Positions 1-47,061 of a stretch of DNA of 64,000 nucleotides are shown here, piece after piece. The notes beneath the pieces were generated by a model, which worked only from the letters and a program-made list of their open reading frames with translations, searched no databases and had not been told where the DNA came from. The position numbers and the translations under genes were made by a program. Numbering within the stretch: position 1 is the stretch's first letter; each line of letters begins with the position of its first letter. The DNA is taken from contig CAUJDW010000093.1 of assembly GCA_963169455.1 (NCBI GenBank), positions 1-64,000 on the forward strand. Direction: 5' to 3'. The DNA is from Bacteroidota bacterium. GTDB taxonomy: Bacteria > Bacteroidota > Bacteroidia > Chitinophagales > Saprospiraceae.

Positions 1-115
1 GTAGTCCTCAAATTTATTTGAGGAGATCTTAACTGAGGCATGTAGTCCTCAAATTTATTTGAGGAGATTTTAACTGAGGCATGTAGTCCTCAAATTTATT
101 TGAGGAGATTTTAAC
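1..115. repeat. Tandem 41-bp hairpin repeat array, family A (2.8 copies)
   Basis: Units begin at 1, 42 and 83. Each carries the inverted repeat cctcaaatttatttgagg (8-bp arms, 2-nt spacer), starting at 5, 46 and 87. A linker containing tttgaggagattttaac follows, which also occurs in the second array at 368-470. Units 1 and 2 differ at one base (gatctt versus gatttt). The array may continue upstream of the window. No coding potential is seen. Confidence 0.9.
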
Positions 116-371
116 AGCGCTAGGGGTGCAGTTGTGCTTTGTCCCCTTTTGTTTCCCGCAACGCCTGCCAGATAGGCACGTTTCCCGGGCGGCGCGTCCG
201 CTGCCGGCCAGTTTGGCATATAGCAAGCATAATGGAGTTAGGCTGCTTTTGGAGAGTTGCGCCCACTACATTGCTCAAGGGCTGCAAACTGAATATCGGC
301 CGTTGTTGCGCCGTTGCGAGAGATGAATAGGGTGTATTTCCCGGGGACAAATCGCAACTGCGCCTCAGCGC
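116..371. mobile_element. Probable 246-bp MITE-like non-autonomous insertion
   Basis: Terminal inverted repeats lie at 123-146 and 343-366 and match at 20 of 24 positions; both outer GGGG-like ends face the flanks and the inner ends read TTTGTCCCC on their own strands. The pentamer AGCGC lies immediately outside on both sides (116-120 and 367-371), consistent with a 5-bp target duplication. Removing 121-371 rejoins the hairpin array, so the linker ending in cagcgc at 115-120 continues into aaataaatttgcgc. No transposase or convincing ORF is present inside. Assignment as a MITE is inference from structure; the family is unknown. Confidence 0.6.
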
Positions 372-9065: not shown

Positions 9066-9101
9066 CTAGCGATGGCATCGCTTAAGGGATGCCATCGCTA
9101 G
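9066..9101 (-). terminator. Perfect 14-bp hairpin over the TonB-receptor stop codon
   Basis: The arms ctagcgatggcatc (9066-9079) and gatgccatcgctag (9088-9101) pair perfectly around an 8-nt loop. The right arm contains the stop codon of the receptor gene. On the minus strand an A-run, not a T-run, follows, so it is not a classical intrinsic terminator. It may only protect the transcript end. Confidence 0.4.
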
Positions 9102-11365
9102 AAGCGCGCCCCCACCCCCACCCACACGCTCCTTCCCGGCCCGTCGATGCCGGAGCCGTGGAAGCGGTAGGCTTCGTCCAGCAGGTTTTGCAGGCCGGCG
9201 TGGAGGTGGAAGCGGCGGAAGCGATAGCCGCCCCGGAGGTTCACCACCTCCCAGGCCGGCGTGCCGCCGGGATTGATGCGGTGGTCGGAGAGGTCGCCGG
9301 GGGCGAGGCGGCCCTGCCGGCCGGCGAAGAGCAGCTCGGCCTGGCCGAACCAGCCCCTGTTTTGTTCGTATGTCAGCGCCAGCCGCCCGAACTTCGGGGG
9401 GATGCGGCGCATGGGGGTATCGGCGCTGGTGTTGTGCCCGAAGGTGGAGGTAAAGTTGACGGCCGCCGACAGGCCTTCCGACAGGCGGTATATCAGCTCC
9501 AGCTCGTAGCCCTCGATGAAGGATTCTTCGATGTTTTCCTTTTTATAGACGTCCTCCCCGTTATAGGTGGGCTGCCCCTGATAGCTGGCCGGCACGCGGG
9601 CGATGAGGTTGGACAGCCAGGCCCGGTAGAGGGCCAGCCCGCCGGCCAGCCGCCCGCTTGTGAGCTTGTAACCTGCCTCTGCCGTCAGGCTCCGCTCCGG
9701 CGACAAGCCCTGGCTGGGGACTTCGATACCGAAATCGAAGGAGCCGAAACTGCTCAGGTCGTTGATGTTCGGGCTGCGGAAGCCGGTGTTCAGGGAAGCT
9801 GAAATGGCGTGCCTGTCGTTGAGGCGGTAGGTGGCGGCGGCATTGCCCACCAGGGCGGAAGGGCTGATGCGGGTGTCGCCGAAAGTGGGGTCTTCAATCG
9901 CAATGCGGAAGGCATTGTAGCGCAGGCCCAGCCGGAGGCTGAGCTGCTCCCAGGCGATGGTATGGGCCGTAAAGGCGGCGGCGCTGGCCTGCCGGGCGCC
10001 GTCGGGGTACAGCCCGCGCAGCATGCTTGCCGCTCCGCTTTCCTGGTCCACATCGCGGGCCTGGCTGCCCACCTTGTCGGCGTAAAATTCGAGCCCGGAG
10101 ATGGCGGACCAGCGGGCGCCGAAGCGGGAATGCACTTCCACCGACAGCCCCAGCACGCGCACATCGTCCTCTTCTTCGCGCTTCAGCTTGCTGCCGGTTT
10201 TCTGCGACTGCCGCCCTTCCAGCGATTGCTGCGCGGAGGCGGTTATCTGAAACTGCTGCATCCAGGGGCTGCCGCCCTGCAGTTGCAGGCGCGCATAGCC
10301 CAGCTGCAGGTTCTGGGGGCTGAACTGTGACAACTGAAAGCCGCGCTGCGCCACCTGGTCGTAGCGGCCCACACCGGCCTGGAACAGCCCGTTGTAGGCC
10401 AGGGTGAGCAGGGCGCGCCGCCCCACCTTTGCCAGGGCCTTGAAGCCGGCGGCCATCTCGCGGTAGGCGGAAGGGGCCTGAAGGCCCAGGCTCCCGCCCG
10501 CGTACATGTCGCCGAAGTTGCGGTAGCTGAAACCCGCCCGCATGGCCTGCTTCTCGCCGGAGAGCTCCAGGGCGGCGCGCCCGCTCTGCTCCATATCGCG
10601 GCTCACCCAGCGGGCCAGCGCTTCGGGGCGCCAGCGCCAGCCGCCCGGCGAGAAGGCCGGGTTCTTCGTCAGCACCTGTATGGCGCCGCCCAGGGCGTCG
10701 CTGCCGTGCAGCACCGACCCGCCGCCACGCTGCACTTCCACCTGCTCCACATTCAGCACATCGATGGTGTTGAAGTACTGGTTGGGGCCGTAGCGGTAAG
10801 TGGAATTGTTAAGCCTGATGCCGTCCAGTAACAGCAGCACCTGGTTGCCGGTGAGGCCCCGCACGAAGGGGGAGCCGCCGCCGTGGTTGGTCTTCTGCAT
10901 CCACACGCCTGCCGTGCCCATGAGGGCCTCGGGCATGGCGCGCGCGCCGCTGCGCGCTATCTCCGATGCCGTCAGGACCGAAATGGCTTCCGGCGCTAGG
11001 AACTGGTGCTCGGGGCTCCGGCGGGCCGTCACAACCACCGCGGCGTTCAACAACTGCGCGGCGGGCCGGAGCTCCAGAACGCCGATATCGGCAACCGCCC
11101 CTTCCTTAACTTCCACCTCCCGCCACAGGGCTTCATAGCCGATGTGGGAAAAAATGAGGCGATAGCGGCCGGGTGCAGATAGCAGAAGGGAAAAACGGCC
11201 CTCCACATCGCTCGCCGCTCCGGCCAGCGCGCCTTCCGGCACGATATTCACCCCAGGCATGGGCTCCAGGCTGCCTCCATCGACAACGCGGCCGGTAATG
11301 GACTGGGCCCGGGCATGAATGCCCAAAGGCAGCAGGAAAATGAGGGTGAGGATTGAAATCTTCAT
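9098..11365 (-). CDS. TonB-dependent outer-membrane receptor
   Basis: The start is taken at the ATG at 11365, which begins a signal peptide (MKISILTLIFLLPLGIHARA); the frame extends to 11401 without signal-like character. The 755-residue protein has a carboxypeptidase-regulatory-like domain at about 22-105 (GRVVDGG, then GRFSLLLSAPGRYRLIFSHI). A plug domain at about 110-240 contains SPFVRGLTGNQVLLLLDGIR and the block VEVQRGGGSVLHGSDALGGA. A 22-strand-type barrel ends in a terminal aromatic (VGVGARF). It imports a ligand across the outer membrane using TonB energy. Its layout resembles catecholate siderophore or haem receptors, but the ligand is not determined. It lies 83 bp downstream of the YncE/phosphatase lipoprotein and may belong to the same transcript. 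Confidence 0.88.
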   Translation of the reverse strand: MKISILTLIFLLPLGIHARAQSITGRVVDGGSLEPMPGVNIVPEGALAGAASDVEGRFSLLLSAPGRYRLIFSHIGYEALWREVEVKEGAVADIGVLELRPAAQLLNAAVVVTARRSPEHQFLAPEAISVLTASEIARSGARAMPEALMGTAGVWMQKTNHGGGSPFVRGLTGNQVLLLLDGIRLNNSTYRYGPNQYFNTIDVLNVEQVEVQRGGGSVLHGSDALGGAIQVLTKNPAFSPGGWRWRPEALARWVSRDMEQSGRAALELSGEKQAMRAGFSYRNFGDMYAGGSLGLQAPSAYREMAAGFKALAKVGRRALLTLAYNGLFQAGVGRYDQVAQRGFQLSQFSPQNLQLGYARLQLQGGSPWMQQFQITASAQQSLEGRQSQKTGSKLKREEEDDVRVLGLSVEVHSRFGARWSAISGLEFYADKVGSQARDVDQESGAASMLRGLYPDGARQASAAAFTAHTIAWEQLSLRLGLRYNAFRIAIEDPTFGDTRISPSALVGNAAATYRLNDRHAISASLNTGFRSPNINDLSSFGSFDFGIEVPSQGLSPERSLTAEAGYKLTSGRLAGGLALYRAWLSNLIARVPASYQGQPTYNGEDVYKKENIEESFIEGYELELIYRLSEGLSAAVNFTSTFGHNTSADTPMRRIPPKFGRLALTYEQNRGWFGQAELLFAGRQGRLAPGDLSDHRINPGGTPAWEVVNLRGGYRFRRFHLHAGLQNLLDEAYRFHGSGIDGPGRSVWVGVGARF

Positions 11366-11448
11366 GCTTCGTTTTTGGAACGTGGGCCTAAAGCCCCGCA
11401 AACCCGGCTGTTTTTATCCCGCTTGAGGGCCTATGCCCGTGTTCCGGG

Positions 11449-14193
11449 CTACTCCCAATTCTCCTGAATGTACTCCACATCGTCCATGGCCGGCCCCTGC
11501 TGCAGGCTTTGCCAGTCGAAAGCCTCGTGCAGGGGGCCATAGGCTTTTTCCGGGTCGAACAGGCGGGGGTCGGGGGTTATGGCCTGATAGGGGGTGAAAT
11601 CGGGAGTTGCCGAAAACAGAGCCCCCATGTCGGTGGCGCCGGCGTCGTACTGGTTCAAATAGGGGATGCCCAGGATGTGCCAGAAAGTTTTGAAAATGCT
11701 GCCGAAGCTGTAATGGGTAGTGGCCACCTGCCCCTTGTTGGCGTATGGGGAGATCACCATCAGCAGGCTGCGGTGGGCGTCAATGTGGTCGACGCCGCCC
11801 TGGGCGTCGTCTTCGGTGACGACGATAGCCATGCTCTTCCAGTAGGGCGTCCGGGAGAGGAATTCTACGATGCGCCCCAGGGCCAGGTCGTTATCGGCCA
11901 TATAACTTTCCCGGAAGGGGAAACCTGCTTCGGGCCGCTCGCCGGCGCCGTGGTCGTTGCTGATGATGATGGTTACCATCGGCGGCATGGTGTCCTTGCC
12001 GGACAGCCACTTCTCCTTGAATTCCTGCTCGAACTGATCGACGCGGTACTGGTCGGGAATGGCCATGTTGTAGGTTGGGAAGCGCTTTGAACTGTTCTCG
12101 TACAGGGCCTGGGTGACCGGGTAATTGATGGCGTAGCCATAGCCCTTATAAGCCAGATCATCGGAAAGGTGGGGGGCGAACATGAGCCCGCAGCCGAAGT
12201 TGTAAAAGCCGACTTTGTGGCGGGCCAGATGGTCCCACAGCGAGCCGGCCTCGTTGTAGTCTTCCGGGTAGATGGCGCCGGAGGCGCCTTCGAAGGCCAG
12301 GTTCCCGGGCGCTTTGGAATCCCAGCGCATGCTGCGGTTGCCGCCGTAGGCCGCCGCGACGCTGCTCTCGACCCATTCGTTGGGATAGGTGCAGGCCAGC
12401 CAGCGGTGCCCGTCGGCAGAGACGTCGGAATCGACGTAGAAGTTGTCGGCCATGGCGAAACGCTCCGCCATAGCCAGGTGGTTGGGCATGACTGTCACGC
12501 TGTCGAGCGACCTGGCGCCCGCCTGGTTGCGGAAGGATGCGTGGTAGCCGTAGCGAGCCAGGGCGGCCTCTCCCCTGCCCTTTTGCAACTGGCCGAAGAC
12601 CTCGTCGTAGGTGCGGTTTTCTTTGGAAATGAAAACGATGTGGCGGATGGGGCTCTGCCGCTCGCCGGGATAAACGGGGATGGGATGCCCGGCGGGGCGG
12701 CGGGCAGCGGCGGCGGCCGCATTTTCAAAGGCGAAATTGTTGTCCAGCACCTTTTGCGTCAGTTTTTTCAGCTCTTTGTCGGTGGGAACGTCCATCACGC
12801 AAACGCTGCCTTTCATCAGGCCTCCGATGTAGCTGCCTTCCGGGCCGGGCTCGAAAGTGGAGCCGCCGTTGGGGCCGCTGCCGAATCCCTTGGCATTGGC
12901 CACCACCAGCTTTTTGCCGTCGGGCGTAACTTTGAGTTTGGAAGGAAACCAGCCGGCAGGGATGTGGCCCTTAACTTCCAGGCTGCCTACATCGATCACC
13001 GCCACAGCATTGATGCCGGCTTCGGCCACATACAGCCGCCTGCCGTCGGGCGAGAGGGCCAAGCCGAATGGGATGACGCCCCGCAGATTGCCCAGCCTGC
13101 CGTCGGGCCGCAGCCAGATGGTGTGCGCCACCGTATCGGTTTCGGTGCTGATTACCGAAATGCAGTCGTTGTTGCCGTTGCTGACGAAGACGTACTTGTC
13201 GGTAGCCACCACGGAATTGGGGCTTGCGCCGCCCACCGCGGGAATGTCCTCTATCTTTTCACCGACCAGGATGCCGGTCTTGACTTTGGCCGCCACCTTG
13301 TTCTGCTCCAGGTCCACTGCCCATACCGAGAAGGATTCGGGCCCATTCGGATCACCCAGCCCCGGCACGCTGAAGCTGTCCGTCCGGATGCCCCGGATGG
13401 ATTCCTCCGACAGATAGGCGAAGGGGGGGAAATCCAGGGCGGTGGCTTCGGGCTTTTGTTTGTCGAAAGAAGGGAGCCAACTGTATTCGTACATGCCCAC
13501 ATTGGCCACATAGGCCGTCTTTTCATCGGGCGAAAGGGTGATGCCGAAGGGGTAGCGCCCTACCGGCACGTTGGCCAGGAGCTTCTTCTGTTCCGCATCC
13601 ACCACGATCATGCGGAAGTTGATCTGGTCAACGGCGTACAGCCGCCGGCCGTCCCGGCTCAGCACCATGTCGCCGATGTACCCGTGGGTGAAATCGACGG
13701 TGTCGTTTTTCTGGCTGCAGGAAATAGAGTCCAGCTTCGCGCCGTCGGCCAGGCGGAAGCGGTAGATGCAGTTCTCCTGCCCGCCGGCGACGTAAACCAC
13801 CTGGTTGTCGGGGGACACGGCCAGCCCCATGAACACGGCGCCGAGCACGCCCTTATCGGTGCGGGCGCCTTCCGGGATTTGCTGCACCTGCGGATTGCCT
13901 GACTGCAGGCCACGGATGATGGATATGGATAAGGGGCTGGTGCCCGAATTGGCGGTAATGGCGGCGTCGCCGTCCGGGCTCAGCACCAGCCCGAAGGGAT
14001 GGGGCGCCACCATGATGGTTTGCCCGTAAGGCGTGATCAGGCGGCCATTGGGCAGCACCGTCTCTCCCGCCCTGTCGATCTGCGTGAGGCGCTCGCCGGC
14101 AGGGGCGTTTACAAGCCAGGGGCCTTCGGGTTTGGGGGCGCAGCGAAAGAGGAACAGGGCCGAAACGGCCAGGAGGAGGAGCTGGTTTTTCAT
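11449..14193 (-). CDS. YncE-like beta-propeller / phosphoesterase fusion lipoprotein
   Basis: The 914-residue protein starts with a lipoprotein signal (LFLFRC, Cys18). Residues about 30-450 form YVTN-type beta-propeller blades, shown by LSPDEKTAYVANVG, LSPDGRRLYVAEAG and VTPDGKKLVVANAKG. The C-terminal half is a phosphoesterase-family alkaline-phosphatase-fold domain with SKENRTYDEVFGQL (about 520), NFYVDSDVSADGHRW, ISNDHGAGERPEAG, VVTEDDAQGGVDHIDAHRS and PYANKG. These are the metal-site blocks of phospholipase-C-like/acid-phosphatase relatives. It probably hydrolyses phosphate esters at the cell surface or periplasm. It sits between a metallophosphoesterase and a TonB receptor, downstream of SusCD, with gaps of 50 and 83 bp that suggest co-transcription. 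Confidence 0.88.
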   Translation of the reverse strand: MKNQLLLLAVSALFLFRCAPKPEGPWLVNAPAGERLTQIDRAGETVLPNGRLITPYGQTIMVAPHPFGLVLSPDGDAAITANSGTSPLSISIIRGLQSGNPQVQQIPEGARTDKGVLGAVFMGLAVSPDNQVVYVAGGQENCIYRFRLADGAKLDSISCSQKNDTVDFTHGYIGDMVLSRDGRRLYAVDQINFRMIVVDAEQKKLLANVPVGRYPFGITLSPDEKTAYVANVGMYEYSWLPSFDKQKPEATALDFPPFAYLSEESIRGIRTDSFSVPGLGDPNGPESFSVWAVDLEQNKVAAKVKTGILVGEKIEDIPAVGGASPNSVVATDKYVFVSNGNNDCISVISTETDTVAHTIWLRPDGRLGNLRGVIPFGLALSPDGRRLYVAEAGINAVAVIDVGSLEVKGHIPAGWFPSKLKVTPDGKKLVVANAKGFGSGPNGGSTFEPGPEGSYIGGLMKGSVCVMDVPTDKELKKLTQKVLDNNFAFENAAAAAARRPAGHPIPVYPGERQSPIRHIVFISKENRTYDEVFGQLQKGRGEAALARYGYHASFRNQAGARSLDSVTVMPNHLAMAERFAMADNFYVDSDVSADGHRWLACTYPNEWVESSVAAAYGGNRSMRWDSKAPGNLAFEGASGAIYPEDYNEAGSLWDHLARHKVGFYNFGCGLMFAPHLSDDLAYKGYGYAINYPVTQALYENSSKRFPTYNMAIPDQYRVDQFEQEFKEKWLSGKDTMPPMVTIIISNDHGAGERPEAGFPFRESYMADNDLALGRIVEFLSRTPYWKSMAIVVTEDDAQGGVDHIDAHRSLLMVISPYANKGQVATTHYSFGSIFKTFWHILGIPYLNQYDAGATDMGALFSATPDFTPYQAITPDPRLFDPEKAYGPLHEAFDWQSLQQGPAMDDVEYIQENWE

Positions 14194-14243: not shown

Positions 14244-16673
14244 TTATCTTAAAACCGCCAATCTCATAACGTTTTCCCCCCTCGCCCCCACCCTCAGCAG
14301 GTAAAGGCCCGGCGGCAAGGCGGCAGTGGATATTTCCAGCCGATCGGCTCCCACCGGCTCGTATAACTTCAGCAGCCGGCCCGATACATCGCAAAGGGCA
14401 ACCCTTTTCAGAGGCACACCAGAGGACTGTACAACCACCCGGCTGTCTGCGGGATTGGGGTACAGCACCAGGCCTGATCCCTCCCCCGCTTCCCCGGCAG
14501 AGGATACGATGCCTACGGTAAAAAAGGCCCGCTCGCCCGGCTCGAAGTACTGGTCGTCGAGGAAGTAGTTGGCGAAGTAATGGCCGTCGGTGAGGTTGCT
14601 GAAATAGGCCGTGCCCTCGCCGCTGTCCACATACGTCCATTGGGTGGAGGCCTGCTGCCCGGGGGTGTCCCCGATGCGGTACACCCCGATCCAGTCGAGG
14701 CTGTTGCCGGGGCCGTTCTCAAAATGGACATCCACCTGCTGCCCGGCGCCGTAATCGGGCTGGCCGGTGGACACCAGGGGGATCGCCCCGATATACAACT
14801 CAACGCGCTCCGCAATCTCGGTATAACCGTCCAGCTCGAAAAAGGCGACGAAATATTCGCCCGGGGTGGACATGTTGAAAGTAACCGTCCCTTCCGGGCC
14901 GCTGACGTATGCCCAGTCGGTGCTCGCAACCTGGCCCGGCGCCTGGCCTTTCCGGTAAATGCCGATCCAGTCGGTTGGATTGCCCGGCCCGTTGACGTAG
15001 GACACTACGATGTCCTCGCCGGGCTCATAGGCGCTTTTTTCCGTCGAGATCGCGGGCGGGCCATCCGTGCTGTTGATGACTTCAAAGAAAACTGCTTCCG
15101 ACCAGGGCGACCACTGCAGGTTCCGGTCGCGGTGGCGCACCCGCGCAAAGTGGGGGCCGTTTACCAGGCGGTTGGCGCCTATCGTCAGTTCGAAGAGGTT
15201 CAGCCCGGCATGGATGTCCACGGGGGCATAATCCGGCGGCCCGGTTGTGCCATAGAGGTTTTCGTAGTCTCTGATCCTGTCGTACTCCAGCTCCTCAAAT
15301 GCGGAGTCGGCGGCGACCTGGAAGTGTATGCTGTTGAACAACTCGCCGCCGGCGGTGGCGTAAGGCGAACTGTGTAGCGCCAGCGGCAACTCCACCGGCT
15401 GCGGGAAGGCGTCGAGCAGTTGGGGCTGCTCCGGAGCGGGCGGGCCGAAACGGCGGTGGAAGACATCGATCAGTTCGTTGTCGAAAACCATGCCCAGGCG
15501 GGGGCTGCCGATGGCGTAGGTTTCCACCGTCATTTCCTGTTGCTCCAGGTTGATGTCCACGATCTGGTACGCCCAGTAATCGATGGTTTTCTGCACATCG
15601 TCGAAGTCCAGTTCGGTGCTCTGCCCCCAGTACTGGTCCCAGGCCGTGCCGCCGGAGATGATGTGGTACATGGGGAAGTGGCGCAACTGGCCGCGGGCGT
15701 AGAGATGGTGATGCCCGCCGGTGTGCATCACGGCTTTGGGAGTTTCGGCGAGCTTGGGGATGGCGTTGTCGCGTATCCAGGGCGAAATATCCCCCACGTA
15801 TTGTTCCGCCTGTATGGGGCGGTGCCCGAAGCTGAATATCCAGTCCACGGAATCGTCCGCTTTGGCGGCGTCCACCACGCTGTTCAGCCAGGACAACTGC
15901 TGCGGGCCGGGATGCTCGCTGCTGAGCATCACGAACAGCACATTGGCGAGCTGAAAGGCGTAGTAGTCTTCCGTGCCGGAACTGATACCGTTATAGCTCA
16001 GGCCGTCGTAGAAGAAATGGCCGTAGTAGGCCTCCAGCCCCAGGCTGCCGTAGGTTTCGTGGTTGCCCACGATGGTCATGATGGGCAGGTTGGGAGAGAC
16101 TTCCGCCGATTTGGCGAAGTGCAGGAACTCGTAGTGCTCAAGTGTCCCCACGTCCACCTGGTCGCCGGCATTAGCCAGCAGGCGGATATGGTCCTCGATG
16201 GGAGCGCCGTATTTTTCCTCTGCTTTGGCCTTGGCCGCCGCCACCAGCCGCTCGTAGCGGCCGGTATCGAGTATTTGGTTGTCACCCAGGATCAGGAAGC
16301 GGAAATGGCCGGTATCCGTACCGGGCAGGGGCTGCGTGCGAAAGCGGTGCACTTCCGACTGCAGGCTGCCGGTGCGAACCTGATAGTAATAGGGCGTATC
16401 GGGCAACAGCCCGGCAAGCTGCGCGCGGTGGTAAAAATAGTTGCCCGGATACCCCACATCGCTGAACACCTCGCAACTGCCGGTGACGGTGAAGCTGAGG
16501 TTGTCGGGCGAAAGCCCGTACTCCACGATCGTCTCCGGGTTGGAACTGGTCTTCCAGCTCACCCAGATGGATTCATGGGTGGGGGTTTGGAGGTAGGGGC
16601 GGATATCCTGGGCCTGAGTGCTTAGCGCAAAAAAATTCAGGATCAGAAGTGGAAGGCTGATTTTGAAATACAT
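14244..16673 (-). CDS. Purple-acid-phosphatase-like metallophosphoesterase with two DWIGIY domains and T9SS domain
   Basis: The start is the ATG at 16673 before the signal peptide (MYFKISLPLLILNFFALSTQAQ); the longer frame from 16751 is rejected. The mature 809-residue protein has a purple-acid-phosphatase-type FN3 domain (about 24-115). A calcineurin-like metallophosphoesterase follows (about 120-400), with LGDNQI, AGDQVD, VGNHETYG, FGHRPI and TGGHHHLYARG supplying metal ligands. An FN3-like module comes next. Then come two copies of a domain marked YEPGEDIVVSY and DWIGIY (near 545-725), shared with the protein encoded at 21521-23245. A type A T9SS sorting domain (about 735-809, PNPADSRVVVQSSGVPLKRV) ends the protein. 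It should be a secreted phosphatase. Confidence 0.88.
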   Translation of the reverse strand: MYFKISLPLLILNFFALSTQAQDIRPYLQTPTHESIWVSWKTSSNPETIVEYGLSPDNLSFTVTGSCEVFSDVGYPGNYFYHRAQLAGLLPDTPYYYQVRTGSLQSEVHRFRTQPLPGTDTGHFRFLILGDNQILDTGRYERLVAAAKAKAEEKYGAPIEDHIRLLANAGDQVDVGTLEHYEFLHFAKSAEVSPNLPIMTIVGNHETYGSLGLEAYYGHFFYDGLSYNGISSGTEDYYAFQLANVLFVMLSSEHPGPQQLSWLNSVVDAAKADDSVDWIFSFGHRPIQAEQYVGDISPWIRDNAIPKLAETPKAVMHTGGHHHLYARGQLRHFPMYHIISGGTAWDQYWGQSTELDFDDVQKTIDYWAYQIVDINLEQQEMTVETYAIGSPRLGMVFDNELIDVFHRRFGPPAPEQPQLLDAFPQPVELPLALHSSPYATAGGELFNSIHFQVAADSAFEELEYDRIRDYENLYGTTGPPDYAPVDIHAGLNLFELTIGANRLVNGPHFARVRHRDRNLQWSPWSEAVFFEVINSTDGPPAISTEKSAYEPGEDIVVSYVNGPGNPTDWIGIYRKGQAPGQVASTDWAYVSGPEGTVTFNMSTPGEYFVAFFELDGYTEIAERVELYIGAIPLVSTGQPDYGAGQQVDVHFENGPGNSLDWIGVYRIGDTPGQQASTQWTYVDSGEGTAYFSNLTDGHYFANYFLDDQYFEPGERAFFTVGIVSSAGEAGEGSGLVLYPNPADSRVVVQSSGVPLKRVALCDVSGRLLKLYEPVGADRLEISTAALPPGLYLLRVGARGENVMRLAVLR

Positions 16674-16783: not shown

Positions 16784-18256
16784 TCACTCTTCCACCAGCA
16801 GCCACATCACTGCATTGACGTTGTCGTTTCCGCTGAACTGCCTGTTGATGGCGGCGGAGACATTGTCGAGGTTGTACAGCAGTTCTTCCTGCGGGTACAT
16901 CCAGCGTTTGGGTATCTGGCCGTTGTTCAGTGTGCCGGGGCCTACTACAAATTCGGGGAAGCCGGTTCTGCGTTGGTTGTAGAAGGGCTCCCAGCCGGAG
17001 TTGAAGAAAAAGGCCAGGTATTTCTGCGTGAGGATCATTTCGACGGCCTTGCCGGCGTCGAAGACGACCTTGGGGTGGTTGAGGTAAGTGGTGATCCGGG
17101 CATTGGGCACGCCATAGAACTCCAAGGAAGCGCGGATGCCCTTCTGGTAGAAGCTGTTGGCGTCGGCCGTTATCCAGCCGCGGGCGGCGGCTTCTGCCAG
17201 GTTGAACATCAGCTCGGGGTAGCCCACGGCGATGGAGGGTTCTCCGACGGGGTCGCTGTGGTAGCGGGGGTCAACCGGGGAGCCGATGCCCTGGGTGCTG
17301 GCCGTGAGGACGTTGTCGGTCAGCTGGGCGCCGCCGTCGAGGCCGCCGTAGGAGCCGAAGTTGAGCTGGTAGCCCGGCTGGCCGTTTTCCACGGCGCGGC
17401 GCTCCGGCTCGGCAAAAACGAACAGCCGCGGGTCTTCCCGCTCGCGGAGGAGGTTGGTAAAGGTGGCCTCCATGTAATAGGCCGTCTGCAGGCTGCGGTT
17501 ATTGTAGTTCGGATAGCGGTTGCCGTCGCGGTCGAAGAACTCCAGCTGAGCCTGGTCGGCCAGGCTGGTGAAGATGGGGTAGGTTGCGGGGTCATTGAAG
17601 ATGCGGCTGAACTGCCCCTTCACGTCCAGGCGGCTGTTGCCCTCCTTGGCCGAAAGGTCTATCAGTACGCGCAGGCGGAAACTGTTAACCAGCTTCTTCC
17701 ACTTCTGCAGGTCGCCGCCGTAAACGATGTCCCCGCCGATCTCGCCCTTGTCGTCGCCGAGCAGGCTGTTGGCTTCCTCCAGCTCCTCCAGTATGGCGGC
17801 GTAAACGTCTTCCTGCAGGTCGTAAGCCGGGAAGTATGCGGCGCCCGTTTCTCCCGCGAGGGCCCCGGAATAGGGAATATCACCGAAAGTGCGGGTGAGG
17901 CCGTGGAAGAAGTAGGCCCGGAAAAACCTGCCGAGGGCAATATAGTTGTCGTTGCCGATGCGCTCGGCCTCTTCAATCATTTTGCTCACCTGCCGCAGGT
18001 CGGCATAAGGGCCGAAGCCGGAGCGCTGCCAGCCGTAATACTGCTCATCGGCGATGCCGTCGGTAAAGACCAGGTAACGGGAAGCCAGGGCAGCGCCGTC
18101 GGAAATCTCGTTGAAGGCGCTCACCTCGATGCCCGTCAGCAAAAGGCTGGGGTTTACCTCGGTGGCGCGGTTGGGGTCCTGCCCCAGCTCGTCGATGCCG
18201 TCGCAGGCCGCGAAAAGCAGGAGAGCAGGCACAAGGAAAAGGATATATTTTTTCAT
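16784..18256 (-). CDS. susD: SusD/RagB-family nutrient-binding lipoprotein
   Basis: The ATG at 18256 begins a lipoprotein signal with the lipobox LLFAAC (Cys18); an in-frame start at 18298 adds 14 residues and is less likely. The 490-residue length and the blocks ALGRFFRAYFFHGLTRTFGD, YPELMFNLAEAAARG and LTQKYLAFFFNSGWEPFYNQ (helical TPR-like scaffold) match SusD-like proteins, probably the SusD-like_2 branch. It caps the SusC channel encoded 56 bp upstream and binds the ligand at the cell surface. The ligand is unknown; the downstream phosphatases suggest a phosphorylated substrate. Confidence 0.93.
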   Translation of the reverse strand: MKKYILFLVPALLLFAACDGIDELGQDPNRATEVNPSLLLTGIEVSAFNEISDGAALASRYLVFTDGIADEQYYGWQRSGFGPYADLRQVSKMIEEAERIGNDNYIALGRFFRAYFFHGLTRTFGDIPYSGALAGETGAAYFPAYDLQEDVYAAILEELEEANSLLGDDKGEIGGDIVYGGDLQKWKKLVNSFRLRVLIDLSAKEGNSRLDVKGQFSRIFNDPATYPIFTSLADQAQLEFFDRDGNRYPNYNNRSLQTAYYMEATFTNLLREREDPRLFVFAEPERRAVENGQPGYQLNFGSYGGLDGGAQLTDNVLTASTQGIGSPVDPRYHSDPVGEPSIAVGYPELMFNLAEAAARGWITADANSFYQKGIRASLEFYGVPNARITTYLNHPKVVFDAGKAVEMILTQKYLAFFFNSGWEPFYNQRRTGFPEFVVGPGTLNNGQIPKRWMYPQEELLYNLDNVSAAINRQFSGNDNVNAVMWLLVEE

Positions 18257-18312
18257 AATGATTTTATTTGGAAGGCGGCGCCGGAGCGCCGGCCTCATGT
18301 TGTCAGCGGTTA

Positions 18313-21300
18313 TTAGAATTTCAGGTTTACATTAAAGCCCAGGTTGCGCGATGGCGGTGTCTGCAGGTATTCCTCACCGCCCGTCGGCGTGCCGTAGGGG
18401 TCGGGGTCCACGTAGTCGTTCTCCGTCCAGAGGAAAAGGTTGCGGCCGACGAAGGCGATGGAGGCCTCGCTCAGCCCGATGGCGGAAATCCACCGGCGGG
18501 GCAACTGGTAAGTCAGCGTCACTTCGCGCAGCTTGACGAAAGAGGCGTCGTAGAGGTTCGACTCTTCCGATGCGCCGTGATAGTAGGAGTTCAGCCAGTT
18601 GGACCAGAACACCGGCGTTTCGTTGGGGGCGAATACGCGGGTGTCTTCCACGATGTTGCCGTTCTCATCGTACACGATCTGCCCTTCGGTTACGACCACG
18701 CCCTGGCCAACGTAGGACTTGACGCCTTCATTTTCCATATCGCGGTCGGGGGTCACCGAACCGGGGTGAGTACCGCCCCACCACATCTTGCGGATGGTCT
18801 GGGAGTAAAAAATGCCGCCCTGCCGGGTATCGACGGAAAGCCCCAGCGTCACTGGCCCCACGGTGAGGAGGCTGTTGACGCCGGCCACCCAGTCGGGGTC
18901 CGTATAACCCAGCGTCTGCCGGTTGGGGTCGATCAGGGGCAGCCCGGAGTTGCCGTCAATGATGATCTGCCCGTCGGGCGCGCGCAGGAAAACATCGCCG
19001 CGGTAAACATCAGTGCGATCGCCGACGGCCACCCCGTCCAGCTCGGTGATCTCCTCCTCGGAACCGAAGGGGCTGGTGATCTCATCGAGGTAGCGGCGGT
19101 AGCGGGCCCAGTTGAAGTTCAGCCCCCAGTTCACCTTGCCGGCGCGGATGGGGGTGGTGTTGAGCACGAACTCGAGGCCGGTGCGGCGGTACACGTTGGC
19201 GTTCTGAGAGACCGCCGAGAAGCCGGAAGCCTGGGAAACCGGGAAATTGATGATGTTGTTGTCGTCGATAGTCCGGTAGTAGCTCACATCCAGCCCCAGG
19301 CGGTTGTTGAAGAAACGGGCGTCGCCGCCGACTTCCAGGGTGGTGGCCCGGAATGGGTTGATCTGCTGGTTGGCGATGGTCCCGGGATAGAAAACCGAGG
19401 CCGTCCCGTCCCAGTTGACCCCGCTTTCGTAGGTGGCCAGGTAATCGTATGCGCCCAGGTCGCCGGCGCCTTCGCTGCCGAGGTCGCCGGACACCTGCGC
19501 CCAGGAGGCCCGCAGCTTGAGGAAGGAAACGGCGGAGGGCAGCTCAACCAGCTCCGAAATGACAGTGCTGAGCGATACCGAGGGGTAGAAGTAGGAATTG
19601 TTGTCCGGGGGCAGGGAAGAAGACCAGTCGTTGCGGCCCGTAAGCCCCAGATAGACGGCGCGGCTGATGCCGAAGTCGACGGTGGCGAAAAGGCTGTTGA
19701 CCCGCTTGCGGCCGCGGAAGTTGCCCGTCGTCACGTCATTCATGGAGTTGGACAGGTTGTACAGCCCGGGGATGTTCAGGCCCGAGGTGTTGCCGTACAG
19801 GCTGTTCCTGGTGCGGAAACGGGAAGAGCCGCCCACCATGGCATTGATCTCGAAGTTGTCGCCGAAAGACTTGTCGTAGTTCAGGAAGAGGTCATTGGTG
19901 ACCTGGAAGTCATAGCTGTTGGACACGTAATAATTGCCGTTGACGTCATCGGAGTAGAGGATGTAGCTCTTGGGCGTTTTCAGCTCGTACTCGTCGAGGC
20001 GGGCGTCGATGCCGGAACGCACTTTGAGGGAAAGCCCTTCCGCCAGTTCGTAGCCCAGCGCCAGGTAGCCGTAGGTGTTGTCGGCTTTGTAGGGCTGCAG
20101 GTTTTCAAAGGCGGCGAAATAGGGGTTGTTGTACCAGGCCAGGTTGTAGTGGCGCTGTTGCAGGCCTTCCTGGCCGGGCATCCAGTAGTTTCTGAGGTCG
20201 CGCACGTCCACGTCGGGGCCCGTCCAGAGCAGCAGGTTATAGACGTAGTTCTGGGGGCCATAGCCGCGGCGGGGGTAGTTGTCGGTATACTGCTTATTGT
20301 AGGTCAGCGATGCGTCGGCGCGCAGGCGCTGGCCGAAGTTGTAGCCCCCGGCGATGGTGAAAGTCGTGGAATTGAGGTCGGTGTTGGGTTCCTGGCCGTT
20401 CTGGTACATGTGGGAAGCGGACAGTCGGAAGTCTCCGGCTTCGTTTTTACCGCTCACGCTGAGGTTGTGGGTGGTGATGACGCCCGTTTCCAGGAAGTTC
20501 TTCAGGTTGTCCTTTCCCCGGGGTATCCAGGGGGTGGGAATGCGCTCGCCCGTCTCGGGGTCGAGGGGGCTGTCGTACTGCGGCAGCAGCCGCCCGTCGA
20601 GCTTGGGGCCCCATATCCAGCCCGAGCCGTCCTGTATGCCGCCGCCCTTGCCATCGACATAGGCGTACTGGCCGCCGTAGCCGGCGCCGTACTGGCTTTG
20701 CACTTCGGGCAGGATCGGCCAGCCCGCCTGGAACATGGTGCTGGAGTTGTAATCGACCGAAAAGCCGTCCTGGCGGGCGCGGCGCGTGGTGATCATGATG
20801 GCGCCGTCGCGCCCGATGGAGCCGTAGAGGGCCGAGGCGGCAGTGCCTTTCAGCACGTTGACCGACTCCACATCATCGGGGTTGATGTCCCAGAAATCAG
20901 TATTGACCGGAACGCCGTCCACTACGATGAGCGGGCTGCGGCCGCGCAGCTGGATGCTGCTGTTTTCGAAAAGGCCCGTGGCGTTGTAGATCGTCAGCCC
21001 GGCCACCTTGCCCGTGAGGTTGCTGAGCACGTTGGGCTCGCGGGCCTGCTGCAGGCTCGCACCGTCCACTTCCTGGGTGGCGTAGCCTACTTTTTTCTGC
21101 GATTTTTCGATACCCAGGGCCGTGACGACCACTTCCTCGAGCACGCTCTGGTCGAGCCCCAGCACCACCGCCACCGTCGAAAGCCCGGCGATGGAAACTT
21201 CCAGGGGCAGGTAGCCGACGTAGCTGACCTGCAGAGCCTGAGCATTTTCTTTTACCTCGAGGGCGAACTGGCCATCGATGTCGGTGGATGTTCCGTTGGT

Positions 21301-21462
21301 TGTGCCTTTCTCAATGACGTTGGCGCCGATGAGCGGCTCGCCTTTGTCATCACGCACCGTACCGGTGATGAGGCGCTGAGCCGAAGCCGGCATGGCCAGA
21401 GCAAGGAGCAGGGCCAGCGCAGCCGCCAGGCGGATAAATTGTGTAAAGTTGGAAGATCTCAT
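18313..21462 (-). CDS. susC: SusC/RagA-family TonB-linked outer-membrane protein
   Basis: This is a 1049-residue SusC-type receptor. It has a signal peptide (LALLLALAMPASAQ), a carboxypeptidase-regulatory-like domain (GTVRDDKGEPLIGANVIEKG at about 35-54) and the SusC-typical linker VLEEVVVTALGIEKSQKKVG. A plug follows with LVVDGVPVN-type and VESVNVLKGTAASALYG blocks. The barrel ends in PPSRNLGFNVNLKF. Together with SusD it forms the outer-membrane import complex. It is 58 bp downstream of the DWIGIY-repeat gene and directly upstream of susD. No neighbouring glycoside hydrolase is seen, so a glycan ligand is not implied. Confidence 0.95.
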   Translation of the reverse strand: MRSSNFTQFIRLAAALALLLALAMPASAQRLITGTVRDDKGEPLIGANVIEKGTTNGTSTDIDGQFALEVKENAQALQVSYVGYLPLEVSIAGLSTVAVVLGLDQSVLEEVVVTALGIEKSQKKVGYATQEVDGASLQQAREPNVLSNLTGKVAGLTIYNATGLFENSSIQLRGRSPLIVVDGVPVNTDFWDINPDDVESVNVLKGTAASALYGSIGRDGAIMITTRRARQDGFSVDYNSSTMFQAGWPILPEVQSQYGAGYGGQYAYVDGKGGGIQDGSGWIWGPKLDGRLLPQYDSPLDPETGERIPTPWIPRGKDNLKNFLETGVITTHNLSVSGKNEAGDFRLSASHMYQNGQEPNTDLNSTTFTIAGGYNFGQRLRADASLTYNKQYTDNYPRRGYGPQNYVYNLLLWTGPDVDVRDLRNYWMPGQEGLQQRHYNLAWYNNPYFAAFENLQPYKADNTYGYLALGYELAEGLSLKVRSGIDARLDEYELKTPKSYILYSDDVNGNYYVSNSYDFQVTNDLFLNYDKSFGDNFEINAMVGGSSRFRTRNSLYGNTSGLNIPGLYNLSNSMNDVTTGNFRGRKRVNSLFATVDFGISRAVYLGLTGRNDWSSSLPPDNNSYFYPSVSLSTVISELVELPSAVSFLKLRASWAQVSGDLGSEGAGDLGAYDYLATYESGVNWDGTASVFYPGTIANQQINPFRATTLEVGGDARFFNNRLGLDVSYYRTIDDNNIINFPVSQASGFSAVSQNANVYRRTGLEFVLNTTPIRAGKVNWGLNFNWARYRRYLDEITSPFGSEEEITELDGVAVGDRTDVYRGDVFLRAPDGQIIIDGNSGLPLIDPNRQTLGYTDPDWVAGVNSLLTVGPVTLGLSVDTRQGGIFYSQTIRKMWWGGTHPGSVTPDRDMENEGVKSYVGQGVVVTEGQIVYDENGNIVEDTRVFAPNETPVFWSNWLNSYYHGASEESNLYDASFVKLREVTLTYQLPRRWISAIGLSEASIAFVGRNLFLWTENDYVDPDPYGTPTGGEEYLQTPPSRNLGFNVNLKF

Positions 21463-21520: not shown

Positions 21521-23245
21521 TTACTGAAGAATTACTTTTCCGATATAGCTCTTTTCGCGGCCGTGCAGCAGGATGGTGTACAGCCCCGGCGCCTGCCGGC
21601 CGAGGTCGGCGGCATTGCGGCCGGGCTCCACGCGCTCCTGCTGAACCAGTTGGCCCATGGCGTTGCGCACTTCCAGAAGCATGGCCCCTTCTTCCTGCGG
21701 CAGTTCGAACTGCACCCAGGCAGTAGCAGGGTTGGGATACAGCGCGAGCTGCGCGATGGCCTCCCGCTGGCCGGATGTCATGGTGACATCGAATTCCGCG
21801 CTGGCGTATATGTCATAGCCGTCGCAGCAGAGGAGGTGGGCGATCCAGCGGCCTTCGTCAAGCGTGCCCGCAAAGGTGGCCTGCCCGGAGGCGGCCGGGA
21901 TATACTGCCAATCCGTAGAGCCCACATCGCCGGGCACATCGCCGGGAGCGTAGATGCCAATCCAGTCGGTATCCGTATATTCCGGGCTGTTGTAGGTGAA
22001 CACGATGTCTTCGCCCGGCGTATAGAAAAGATTCGAAGCAACAAGGCTGGCCACCGTTTCATCCCCGACGGTGAAATTGACAAAAGCATACACGGAGTAG
22101 CTGTCGCAGCAGAGCAGGTAGGCGGTGTAGTCTCCCGGCGGGAGGGTTCCTTCAAAGGTGATGTAACCGCTTGCGCCGGGTATGTACTGCCAGATGATCG
22201 AGTTTGCCTCACCGGGCGCCTGCCCCCGTTCATAGATGCCGATCCAGTCGGTGGAAAAATACTCGGGGCTGGTATAGGAAAAAATCATGTTGCTGCCCAC
22301 CGGATAAACGGAGGCATTGGACGAGAGGGCTGCGCCGGGCACGCCTTCGGTAATTTCAAAGGGAGCCGACTGGGCGTAAACCGTGTAGCTGTCGCAACAG
22401 AACAGGTATGCTTTGTAGAGCCCCGGCTCGAGGGTGCCGGCGAAAGTGGCCGTTCCGCTTTCCTGCGGGATGTACTGCCAGATTATGGAAAGTACCGTAT
22501 TAGGGTTGTCGCCCACATGGTAGATGCCGATCCAGTCGTTCTCCGCAAAAGCCGGGCTGGTGTATTCGAGCTGGATGGGCTCGCCCTGCCCGTACTGGGC
22601 CTGGCTGGCGAGCAGGTTGCCCTGCGGCACGTCGTCGTCCTGTATCTGGAAAGCTACCTGAGCATAAACCTGGTAGCCGTCGCAGCACAACAGATAGGCC
22701 ACATAATCACCCGGCGGCAGGGCATCGGTGAAAACAGCCACCCCGGAAGTGTCGGTGATGTACTGGTAGGTCAGGGAAGGCGGGTCGCCATCGGGTATTT
22801 CACCCGCCGGATAGATGCCGATCCAGTCGGTGGAGGAAAAAGCAGGGCTGAAGTAGGAAAACTCCAGCGCTTCTCCTTCAATGTAGATGGATTGCGGTGT
22901 AGTGAGGGTGGGCGCCGCACTGACCACAAATTCTTCGCTGAACGCCAGGATGTCATAGCCATCGCAGCACAACAGGTAAGCGATGTAAGTGCCCGGTTCC
23001 AGTTCTTCTTCAAAAACCACGGCGCCCGAAGGGGACGGTATGTACTGCCAGGTTGTCGAAGCCGAAGTTCCGGGCGCCACATCCGGAGGGAAAATGCCGA
23101 TCCAGTCCGTATCGGTGTAATCGGGGCTATCGTAGGTGAAGCTGATGGGCTCTCCACTGTAGAAAGCCGTGCCGGATACCGTCAGCGACTGGGCTGCCAG
23201 CGCCAGTGGCAGGAATAACAGGAAAAAGGAGTAGCATTTTTTCAT
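21521..23245 (-). CDS. Secreted protein of five DWIGIY repeats with T9SS sorting domain
   Basis: The 574-residue protein starts with a signal peptide (MKKCYSFFLLFLPLALAAQ). Five consecutive repeats of about 95-98 residues follow, with the block (T/N)DWIGI(Y/F) near residues 46, 140, 236, 335 and 427. Each repeat runs as (Y)xxGExxxFxYxSPxY, DWIGIYxxGxxPG, WQYIPxxSGxxxF, LxPGxYxAYLLCCDGY. A pair of adjacent cysteines closes every repeat. A type A T9SS domain occupies about 495-574. The pattern of a beta-sandwich with YxPGxD and DWIGIF resembles the eukaryotic SKICH domain (my recall, not a search). Being first in the susC-susD gene run suggests a surface-binding accessory role; its function is not known. 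Confidence 0.75.
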   Translation of the reverse strand: MKKCYSFFLLFLPLALAAQSLTVSGTAFYSGEPISFTYDSPDYTDTDWIGIFPPDVAPGTSASTTWQYIPSPSGAVVFEEELEPGTYIAYLLCCDGYDILAFSEEFVVSAAPTLTTPQSIYIEGEALEFSYFSPAFSSTDWIGIYPAGEIPDGDPPSLTYQYITDTSGVAVFTDALPPGDYVAYLLCCDGYQVYAQVAFQIQDDDVPQGNLLASQAQYGQGEPIQLEYTSPAFAENDWIGIYHVGDNPNTVLSIIWQYIPQESGTATFAGTLEPGLYKAYLFCCDSYTVYAQSAPFEITEGVPGAALSSNASVYPVGSNMIFSYTSPEYFSTDWIGIYERGQAPGEANSIIWQYIPGASGYITFEGTLPPGDYTAYLLCCDSYSVYAFVNFTVGDETVASLVASNLFYTPGEDIVFTYNSPEYTDTDWIGIYAPGDVPGDVGSTDWQYIPAASGQATFAGTLDEGRWIAHLLCCDGYDIYASAEFDVTMTSGQREAIAQLALYPNPATAWVQFELPQEEGAMLLEVRNAMGQLVQQERVEPGRNAADLGRQAPGLYTILLHGREKSYIGKVILQ

Positions 23246-40537: not shown

Positions 40538-41941
40538 TCAAAGCGCCAGGCTTTCCAGAAAGGCGGCCAGCTCCGAAAGGCCGATATCCCGGCTGAAATA
40601 CTCCAGGGCCAGCAGCAAAAATACGGGGTTTCGGATTATCCGCTCTTCCACATCCGGATGTTGCCGGATCACTTGTTCAGCTACCGAAAAGCGCTCCTGA
40701 AAGGCCTTCCTGCGCTGCTCCAGCTCGGCAGGCGGCGTATTTTTCAAAAGCAGATAGGCGTGGAAAAAATCCGGCAGCCCATCCAGCCCGCCCAGTTTGG
40801 GCAGCCTCGGCAGAACGCCGTGGACAAAAGCTTCCAGTTCATCGGACTGCAGGAGCCGCCGCCTGAGATCATCGAGGGTAAGGGGCGCCGCCGGGGCGGG
40901 CCCTTCCAGGGGGAACAGGCTGAGGGCGAGCTGCTCCGTCCGCAGCCCGGACAGGGTAAAGCGGTTTTGTTCCTGCAGCCCGGGCAGGAAGGGGTTGACA
41001 TGGTAGAAAACGAACAGGGTATCCGCAGTTGGGTTGTGGATGTCGGCTTCGGAGTACAGGCTGTCGTTCCGTGGAAAAACCGATTTCAGGCCTTCGGGCG
41101 CTTCGGCCAGCACCAGCGGGATATGCAGCCTGCCCTCGCTGTACGGCGGCAATTGCACGCTGGCGTAACGCTGCCCCTGCCCACCGGGGCTGCAGCAGCT
41201 CAGGCGGGCGCCCGGCGGAAGCACGAAGGCGGTATCGGGGATGAAAGAGCCGGACAGGTACCAGCCGGAAAGCCGGTTATCCTCCCGGCTCATGAATTTG
41301 TCCAGAAACAGCAGCACCCCTTTTTCCGGAGTGATGGGAAAAACCTGGCCTCCGAACGAGAAAAAGCGGGCCTGCCCCCCGGCAATTCCCTCAACCGAAC
41401 AGACAACAGTGGAATCTTTCAGCAGGAAGGCCCCCGTTTCCGGGTCGAACATCTGCCAGCGGCCGCCGAGTTTGACTTCCGGAACCGCATGCCCCTCCAG
41501 GTTCCATATCCGGGCGGGCAGCCCGGCCTGTTGCCAAATCCGGCACAGGCTGGCCGCCCGGTCGTCGCAAAAGCCCTTCCCGAGGGAATTGAGCAGCACT
41601 TCGGGGCTGTGCAGCCACCTTTCCGCACTGATGGGCGGCGCATTGCGCGACAAACGGTGCACATACTCCAGGCTGTTCCGTACAAAGGCGCTGTCATCGG
41701 CGCTTTCCTGCCTCAGCCGGGCCGCGATCTCAGCGGTGCTCGCCCAGAAGCCGCCGTTGATGTCGAGGGTGAATACGGCATCCCGCCGCCCCTGGTTGGT
41801 GATGGCCCAGCCGGTGCGCCCGGGCTCCGTGGCCGCCATGACGGCAACCTTTTCCCCGGCCTCCGGCCTGCAGCCGCCAAGGGCCAGCAGGGCCAGCCAG
41901 AGCCAGGCGCTACTATTCTTGTTCCGCGAGCCTAAGCGCAT
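40538..41941 (-). CDS. Transglutaminase-like lipoprotein (operon gene 12)
   Basis: The lipobox LALLALGGC (Cys24) predicts a lipoprotein. A transglutaminase-like cysteine-protease fold follows, with Cys125 (GKGFCDDRA), His151 (LEGHAVPEV) and Asp166 (WQMFDPETG) as a plausible triad. The remaining 290 residues are beta-rich and then helical, with no family I recognise. Its start overlaps the radical SAM gene by 29 bp, implying translational coupling. A secreted peptidase or ligase acting on the exported product or its surface attachment is a guess. Confidence 0.7.
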   Translation of the reverse strand: MRLGSRNKNSSAWLWLALLALGGCRPEAGEKVAVMAATEPGRTGWAITNQGRRDAVFTLDINGGFWASTAEIAARLRQESADDSAFVRNSLEYVHRLSRNAPPISAERWLHSPEVLLNSLGKGFCDDRAASLCRIWQQAGLPARIWNLEGHAVPEVKLGGRWQMFDPETGAFLLKDSTVVCSVEGIAGGQARFFSFGGQVFPITPEKGVLLFLDKFMSREDNRLSGWYLSGSFIPDTAFVLPPGARLSCCSPGGQGQRYASVQLPPYSEGRLHIPLVLAEAPEGLKSVFPRNDSLYSEADIHNPTADTLFVFYHVNPFLPGLQEQNRFTLSGLRTEQLALSLFPLEGPAPAAPLTLDDLRRRLLQSDELEAFVHGVLPRLPKLGGLDGLPDFFHAYLLLKNTPPAELEQRRKAFQERFSVAEQVIRQHPDVEERIIRNPVFLLLALEYFSRDIGLSELAAFLESLAL

Positions 41942-43253
41942 GATTGTGCCAGTTTTTGAGCTGGTTCAGCAGCCCGTCAAATGCTTCCATATTCCTTTTG
42001 GCCAAGGGGCCTTCGGCGGAGGGATAATGGCTTTCGTAGTACCGGATAACCTGCCCCAGTTCCGTGGCCGGCAGTTTCCGAAGGGATAGCTCCTCGGGAA
42101 ACCAGACGGTGTTGAAAAAAACGTTGAACCCCCTGCGGTTGCAGGTTTCCACCATCTCGGGCATTTCCATGGCATTCAGGATCATGGGGCAGATCGCGAC
42201 AGACAGATCGGACTGCTGCCGGCGGTTGACTTCGGCGAAGTAATCGATGCTTTCCATCACTTTCTCAAACCGGGCGTTCTGCCGGATGGCCTCATAGGTT
42301 TCCTTGCGGAAGGAATCGACGGAGACGATGAGGTGGGTTCTCACTTTTTCCAGCACATCGCGCACCCGCTTGTTGAAAATGGTCCCGTTGGTGGTGATAT
42401 GGGCGGCCAGGGCGGGGTTGAGGCGGGCCATGCGTTCCCAGATTTCATAATAAATGGAGACGAGGAAGGGCTCGCCGCCGTAAAACTTGGCCTGCCAGAG
42501 GTATGGGATAAAAGCTTCCAGTTGGCGGGCAAACTCGATGCCGTAAAGTTCGGGATAAGGCTCCAGCCCTTCCCTGTTTTTGCGGATGGAAGAGGAAAAT
42601 TCGCCGGTGCACATCACGCACTCCAGGTTGCAGGTGCTGCTGAGCTCGAACTCCATGCCCCGGGGGTAGGTATCTGCAGCTTTCGGAGTGTTCCGGGATA
42701 GCACTTTTGCCTTGAACTGCCCTACCTCCTGGCGCAAAACCCGGCGAAGGGAAATGCCCGGCTGTTGCGCCGCCAGCATCTCGCGTATCTTCCGTGCGTA
42801 GAAGGCGCCGCCGGACCGCAGGCGGAACCTCAATTCTCCCAGAGAAACGGGCTGGGTAAACAATTGCCAGAGTTGTTTGGACAGGCCTGCGATAGGCGCA
42901 TCGGCGTATTTGTCGAAATGCCGGGCGGGCATGTTGAAAAAGTTGCCCGCATCCAGTATCTGATGGCAGTAATAACATCCGCCGGCCAGGGTGTTTTCGG
43001 TAATGGCCTGCCGCAAGGCCTCCGCTTCGGCGCTGGCCCAGATCGCGGCAATGGACTGTGCCGGCCAGCGGCCCAGCACCTCCGTGCGGTTGTAACAGCA
43101 GGCCAGCACCTTCCCGTCGCGCCCGAAATACATATTCTGGAAGGGCGCATGGCACAGCTTCCGCCGGGCGTTCAGGCTGCGGGTATGCTGGTGTGCTTTC
43201 AATGTGGAAGCATCAACGGGTATGCGCTTTATCTCATCCATCTTTTCCACCAT
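41913..43253 (-). CDS. N-twitch radical SAM protein (operon gene 11)
   Basis: This 446-residue radical SAM enzyme has an unusual order. A SPASM/twitch-like Cys domain comes first: Cys34 (LCHAPFQNMYFG), Cys52-Cys53 (ACCYNRTEV), Cys93 and Cys96 (GGCYYCHQ). The radical SAM core follows, with Cys208, Cys212 and Cys215 in SSTCNLECVMC. This matches the N-terminal-twitch radical SAM group found in glycan and natural-product loci. It reductively cleaves SAM to start radical chemistry; the substrate is unknown. Its start overlaps asnB by 25 bp and its end overlaps the next gene by 29 bp. Confidence 0.85.
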   Translation of the reverse strand: MVEKMDEIKRIPVDASTLKAHQHTRSLNARRKLCHAPFQNMYFGRDGKVLACCYNRTEVLGRWPAQSIAAIWASAEAEALRQAITENTLAGGCYYCHQILDAGNFFNMPARHFDKYADAPIAGLSKQLWQLFTQPVSLGELRFRLRSGGAFYARKIREMLAAQQPGISLRRVLRQEVGQFKAKVLSRNTPKAADTYPRGMEFELSSTCNLECVMCTGEFSSSIRKNREGLEPYPELYGIEFARQLEAFIPYLWQAKFYGGEPFLVSIYYEIWERMARLNPALAAHITTNGTIFNKRVRDVLEKVRTHLIVSVDSFRKETYEAIRQNARFEKVMESIDYFAEVNRRQQSDLSVAICPMILNAMEMPEMVETCNRRGFNVFFNTVWFPEELSLRKLPATELGQVIRYYESHYPSAEGPLAKRNMEAFDGLLNQLKNWHNHALRLAEQE

Positions 43254-46254: not shown

Positions 46255-46255
46255 C

Positions 46256-47059: not shown

Positions 47060-47061
47060 GC

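Follow-up and report, generated by a model that had tools for sequence, protein, structure and literature searches.

The locus lies on the minus strand of the window, by which we mean the whole 64,000-nucleotide stretch of Bacteroidota DNA that was analysed. In order along that strand come a gene for an array of five repeats, a SusC, a SusD, a PAP-like phosphatase that carries two more of the repeats, a PF04185 phosphoesterase and a second TonB receptor, with gaps of 58, 14, 110, 50 and 47 bases between them. The TonB-dependent receptor (9098-11401, minus strand, 47 bases past the PF04185 gene) is nearest to heme/siderophore receptor models. Elsewhere in the window (40538-49524, minus strand), a run of adjoining genes whose products carry transglutaminase, radical SAM/SPASM, asparagine synthase, UbiA prenyltransferase and PPDK/PEP-utiliser domains has the look of a biosynthetic cluster. 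The features of the locus are these:

21521..23245, minus strand: secreted SKICH-like array protein, 574 aa (open reading frame, five repeats, T9SS tail)
23192..23245, minus strand: probable signal peptide of the array protein, MKKCYSFFLLFLPLALAA (read from sequence)
22919..23188, minus strand: SKICH-like repeat 1 of the array (profile E 1e-39)
22640..22912, minus strand: SKICH-like repeat 2 of the array (profile E 8e-38)
22349..22618, minus strand: SKICH-like repeat 3 of the array (profile E 1e-40)
22064..22330, minus strand: SKICH-like repeat 4 of the array (profile E 2e-39)
21782..22048, minus strand: SKICH-like repeat 5 of the array (profile E 2e-40; AF2 model; fold match)
22964..22969, minus strand: CC pair of repeat 1, residues 93-94 (all mature cysteines paired)
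22682-22687, 22394-22399, 22106-22111 and 21824-21829, minus strand: CC pairs of repeats 2-5 (all mature cysteines paired)
21524..21742, minus strand: T9SS type A C-terminal sorting domain, array residues 502-574 (TIGR04183 27 bits, cut-off 23)
18313..21462, minus strand: SusC/RagA TonB-dependent outer-membrane transporter (TIGR04056, 555 bits)
16784..18298, minus strand: SusD-like lipoprotein (PF12771, E 8e-81; lipobox LLFAAC)
14244..16673, minus strand: PAP-like metallophosphoesterase with two SKICH-like repeats and a T9SS tail (PF16656, PF00149, TIGR04183)
14787..15056, minus strand: SKICH-like repeat 1 of the phosphatase (profile E 1e-36)
14511..14777, minus strand: SKICH-like repeat 2 of the phosphatase (profile E 8e-35)
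11449..14193, minus strand: beta-propeller plus PF04185 phosphoesterase (phospholipase C/acid phosphatase superfamily), probable lipoprotein (63% identity to its positional counterpart in L040, a Prolixibacteraceae locus)

The motif DWIG(I)(Y/F) stands at residues 47, 140, 237, 333 and 427 of the array protein, once per repeat of about 93 amino acids, and at residues 568 and 660 of the phosphatase, where the repeats lie ahead of the T9SS tail. Any two of the array repeats share 44-57% amino-acid identity, and their closing strand reads L-x-x-G-x-Y-x-A-Y-L-L-C-C-D-G-Y. When a profile of the seven repeats was run over the whole 6.8-Mb genome, it found these seven places only, at E values of 1e-34 to 1e-40; the next match came at 0.39, which excludes a chance origin of the set. 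Both secreted proteins pass the NCBIfam model for T9SS type A tails (TIGR04183, cut-off 23) with 27 bits for the array and 32 for the phosphatase, and the same genome holds a full PorU sortase (1243 bits). The array has no lipobox, because Cys4 precedes the hydrophobic core of the signal peptide. The earlier note's description of five repeats here and two in the phosphatase with a shared motif and a closing tyrosine strand, in a T9SS-secreted array with paired cysteines, is borne out.

The mature array protein has ten cysteines, all in five CC pairs, one per repeat, and in the L040 orthologue the mature cysteines are likewise just five CC pairs. In the AF2 model of repeat 5 the pair sits at the end of the F strand, ahead of a D-G-Y turn; in the phosphatase repeats and in the repeats of other phyla, N-D mostly takes its place. 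Each pair probably gives the binding loop its shape, either as a vicinal disulfide or as a metal site. The repeats of the window and L040 arrays could not be matched position by position, except for a hint at repeats 4 and 5, and position-specific roles are therefore unsupported.

What kind of domain is it? AF2, given an 81-row alignment, modelled repeat 5 (taken as 21764-22051) as seven strands with pLDDT 95 and pTM 0.86, and another model, built for a Rheinheimera repeat that is linked to an EEP domain, was also confident (pLDDT 95). The repeats are, as modelled, seven-stranded Ig-like sandwiches of about 93 residues with a D-W-I-G-I core strand. By VIA-align, in which we treat Z gaps under 1 as ties, the window repeat matched the N-domain of plant PPD1 (3zk4) best, with Z 11.6 and rmsd 1.9 over 92 residues, in a tie with SKICH, of which eight entries from NDP52 and TAX1BP1 gave Z 10.6-11.2 and rmsd 1.7-2.5 over 86-93 aa. 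The Ig-like domains of complement/MG2, TEP and dextranase followed, reaching at most Z 9.9, mostly with rmsd 2.5-3.2, and HECW2 stood at 9.4. With the Rheinheimera repeat, SKICH or HECW2 took ranks 1-7, 9 and 10; over both models together, SKICH structures gave Z 9.6-11.2. Foldseek placed NDP52 SKICH first among 350,542 chains for the Rheinheimera repeat (E 3e-4); for the window repeat it put other Ig-like domains first, and SKICH had no place in the best 50 matches listed. The NDP52 SKICH domain is built of seven strands, its two termini lie on opposite sides and its W55-I-G-I58 is buried (PMC3510444), and W30IGI33 of our model falls in register with W55IGI58 (residues 1..96 aligned with 23..133, with a three-residue insertion). 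When that first SKICH structure was described, its nearest structural relative was complement C3, at DALI Z 8.3 (PMC3510444); by that measure, the bacterial repeats seem to be nearer relatives of SKICH than any described in that paper.

The sequences point the same way, less forcefully when repeats are taken singly. Taken whole, the array reaches 44.3 bits with Pfam SKICH (PF17751), past the gathering cut-off of 23.4, which proteins of L040, L047, L051, L071 and L031 also pass as whole proteins; single window repeats score 12.8-17.1 bits, under the cut-off, and we accordingly class them as a SKICH-like sister family rather than as plain members of PF17751. Among 81 repeats, SKICH is the Pfam family matched by most (50), with HECW_N next (24). 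Besides SKICH, Pfam matched HECW_N and fn3_PAP; the plant PAP fn3-like family, PF17808, reached 19.9 bits against a gathering cut-off of 33, despite giving the best structural match. Weak matches to SpaA, Y_Y_Y, PPC and viral capsid P domains were taken as chance or shared fold. Against all PDB sequences (177,635), a 7-row profile put NDP52 SKICH (E 0.007) and HECW2 (0.045) on top, and with the 81-row profile TAX1BP1 SKICH joined them, the E values ranging from 0.007 to 0.11 over both profiles. Aligned to NDP52 by HMMER, the 81-row profile spans the domain, through Y-x-P-G, DWIGI, GxY, DG and a closing F.

How much of this is the hexamer alone? Human SKICH sequences were shuffled 3000 times each with DWIGI(F/Y) held fixed, and the shuffles equalled the real score in 5/3000 cases for NDP52 and 20/3000 for TAX1BP1; in a column-shuffle test with hhalign, 3/300 did so. 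With the hexamer masked, neither hhalign nor the shuffle comparison left any SKICH signal, so that the flanks add a signal that is real and modest. The match beyond DWIGIY, whose absence the earlier note would have counted against its idea, is there as a weak flanking signal, and it does not stand without the hexamer. The note's suggestion that these are bacterial relatives of SKICH is supported. The predicted fold is not one unrelated to SKICH, since the two models, of repeats from separate phyla, both fit SKICH structures best (with PPD1 tied for the window repeat), and the PDB profile ranking and the whole-protein Pfam score agree with it. We regard it as highly probable that the repeats are related to SKICH.

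SKICH, found in human lipid phosphatases and autophagy receptors (NDP52/CALCOCO2, TAX1BP1, INPP5K/SKIP and INPP5J/PIPP), shares with the repeats the seven-strand Ig-like fold, the DW(I/V)GIF/Y core strand, a Y-x-P-G-(D/E) first strand, G/D-x-Y, a closing F strand and, in SKIP and PIPP, an association with an EEP-type phosphatase. Unlike SKICH, the bacterial repeats are secreted, tandem and, in Bacteroidota, T9SS-sorted; they keep the G and lack the W of the VGW that follows DWVGIF, score below the cut-off as single domains, and have CC pairs that are new relative to SKICH, whereas the SKICH of SKIP is C-terminal and intracellular. The fn3-like domain of plant PAPs (PF17808; lupin PPD1) superposes best on the window repeat and also sits on a PAP-class enzyme, and yet it is a lone N-terminal copy that sends a 26-residue loop into the active site, where the bacterial copies are C-terminal and tandem. 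The N-terminal domain of HECW1/2 (PF16562, 2lfe) is the second-ranked family in the profile searches, with fold matches at Z 8.7-9.4, and differs from the repeats as a single domain of an intracellular ubiquitin ligase. Fold and profile show the repeats to be a sister family of the SKICH of metazoans, of the HECW N-domains and of the fn3 domain in plant PAPs; that all of them share an ancestor we infer.

The family is broad and patchy, with members in several bacterial phyla. Relatives occur in Prolixibacteraceae, Verrucomicrobia, Rheinheimera, Sulfurovum, a clostridial MAG, Embleya, Burkholderia and an Enterobacter plasmid; carriers make up 11 of 296 Bacteroidota genomes in a spread sample and 3 of 61 genomes of the window's own family. 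Fusions to PAP-like enzymes are found in the window, in L040, in L071 (from the window's family, with five repeats), in other Bacteroidota and in the verrucomicrobial L041, which L042 and L044 resemble by sequence; the repeat count in related phosphatases ranges from 2 to 5, and in L041 and L042 a repeat-only gene adjoins the PAP gene. Fusions to EEP domains (PF03372) occur in Rheinheimera, in the verrucomicrobial L047, which L048 and L050 resemble, and in the Enterobacter plasmid protein. Phosphoesterases of the PAP-like or EEP type are a recurrent partner of the repeats, by fusion or in a neighbouring gene. The inositol 5-phosphatase domain of SKIP/INPP5K belongs to the EEP superfamily. In SKIP the C-terminal SKICH is joined to that domain (PMC13047053), and in PPD1 the like-folded domain is joined to a DNA-cleaving PAP and has been proposed to select DNA (PMC4062093).

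Several of these relatives have arrangements of their own. L047, L048 and L050 have two or three successive array genes, the last fused to the EEP domain. A Sulfurovum MAG (L051:55-2800) encodes a four-repeat protein and then a one-repeat probable lipoprotein, with a similar C-terminal domain in both; the Enterobacter plasmid gene (L073:3908-5344), whose EEP protein has a divergent N-terminal repeat, adjoins Tn3-family transposase and recombinase genes; and a protein of a distant Bacteroidota (L069:10535-12766) has a single C-terminal SKICH-like domain behind a middle part that looks FecR-like.

The enzyme of our own locus matches PF16656, the PAP N-domain, with 66 bits and PF00149, the metallophosphatase domain, with 43. 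Its metal-ligand motifs (GD, GD, GNHE, H and HxH) are kept in nine homologues, and the window phosphatase and all homologues read GDQVD where GDxxY would supply a tyrosine ligand; lacking that tyrosine, the phosphatase is unlikely to be purple. A comparison of the window phosphatase with viral contigs found no match. In L040 the gene order is SusC, SusD, array, PAP, PF04185, and identity to the window is 63% for PF04185, 49% for the PAP and 39% for the array, against 29% for SusC and 23% for SusD, both in partial alignments, with different SusD families. Array, PAP and PF04185 are therefore a conserved core, the SusCD pairs seem to have been exchanged, and the three core genes are tied to one another more closely than to uptake. 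Gene content, and recurrence in a second family of Bacteroidota, make it likely that array, SusC/SusD, PAP-like phosphoesterase and PF04185 form a phosphoester-scavenging locus.

What, then, would the array do there? As an account of the whole, we lean toward a surface capture or docking module of such a locus. On the cell surface, to which T9SS exports the five-repeat array, its domains would hold substrate, or hold the phosphatase through contacts between like domains, near the SusCD transporter, and products released by the phosphatase would be taken up through SusCD. The array would then stand where SusE/F stand in glycan loci. Like the glycan-binding SusE and SusF, it is a multi-Ig-like surface protein encoded with SusC/SusD, and in L040 it comes directly after SusD, as they do; in the window it lies upstream of SusC. 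Unlike them, it is no lipoprotein and has a T9SS tail instead, its neighbours are phosphoesterases, and no sequence match to the SusE/F families was seen.

Capture or docking, as opposed to mere spacing, is for us close to an even call, and we stop a little short of endorsing it. The main rival takes the repeats as rigid Ig-like rods, without a ligand of their own, that lift enzymes off the surface, and we hold this possible if not probable. Ig-like folds are common and often serve as spacers; termini on opposite sides, as seen in the NDP52 SKICH (PMC3510444), suit end-to-end arrays; a spacer role has been proposed for the PUL domain DUF1735 (PMC11216935); and the variation from 2 to 5 repeats in related phosphatases fits a matter of length. 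A repeat-only protein without an enzyme would, however, hold up nothing, and the conserved CC pairs and D-G-Y turn of the array suggest more than length. We rank lower, as unlikely, the analogy by which the repeats would bind nucleic acids or nucleotides and feed the phosphatases, much as the PPD1 domain overhangs its active site. That domain heads the structural matches for the window repeat, it belongs to a DNA-cleaving enzyme for which it is the proposed selector (PMC4062093), and elsewhere in the family the repeats are joined to EEP nuclease/phosphatase domains; but the role in PPD1 is itself a proposal that rests partly on the 26-residue loop, for which repeats of about 93 aa have no room. 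The window array, moreover, has 62 D/E against 4 K/R in 477 aa, a net charge of -58, which makes simple DNA binding unlikely here; the L040 array stands at just -15, so that acidity is no family trait.

A doubt of another kind concerns descent rather than function: an unrelated Ig-like family might have gained the DWIGI core strand independently and owe nothing to SKICH. The loss of sequence signal on masking the hexamer would sit well with such convergence, as would the many Ig-like domains that reach Z 8-10. Yet the same hexamer lies on the same strand in register with SKICH, the lowest rmsd values of the first model are to SKICH and PPD1, SKICH is at the top for both models, and the flanks give a signal that so few shuffles equal (5/3000 and 20/3000). 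We think convergence very improbable, and return to kinship with SKICH.

A literature search found no paper on bacterial SKICH-like domains or a DWIGIY-type motif, which is weak evidence of absence. Pfam already picks out proteins of this sort by their whole-protein score, and their fold is a known one; what is new is that the domain is secreted in tandem, that it has CC pairs and that it is linked repeatedly to phosphoesterases of two classes. SKICH, the HECW N-domain, the plant PAP fn3 domain and the bacterial repeats could even be, and we offer this tentatively, a single superfamily that predates autophagy and reaches beyond it, with a phosphoesterase as its usual partner: PAP in plants and bacteria, EEP in SKIP/PIPP and bacteria. 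If that is true, a domain of animal autophagy receptors would come from an extracellular, phosphatase-associated module of bacteria or early eukaryotes. The papers cited here treat SKICH as a eukaryotic domain, and a closer, widespread bacterial family offers a possible origin for it, links three Pfam families (SKICH, HECW_N and fn3_PAP) and supplies many natural SKICH variants for structure-function work. For the Bacteroidota themselves, it gives a candidate phosphoester-scavenging locus and a conserved vicinal-cysteine surface array that is open to direct test.
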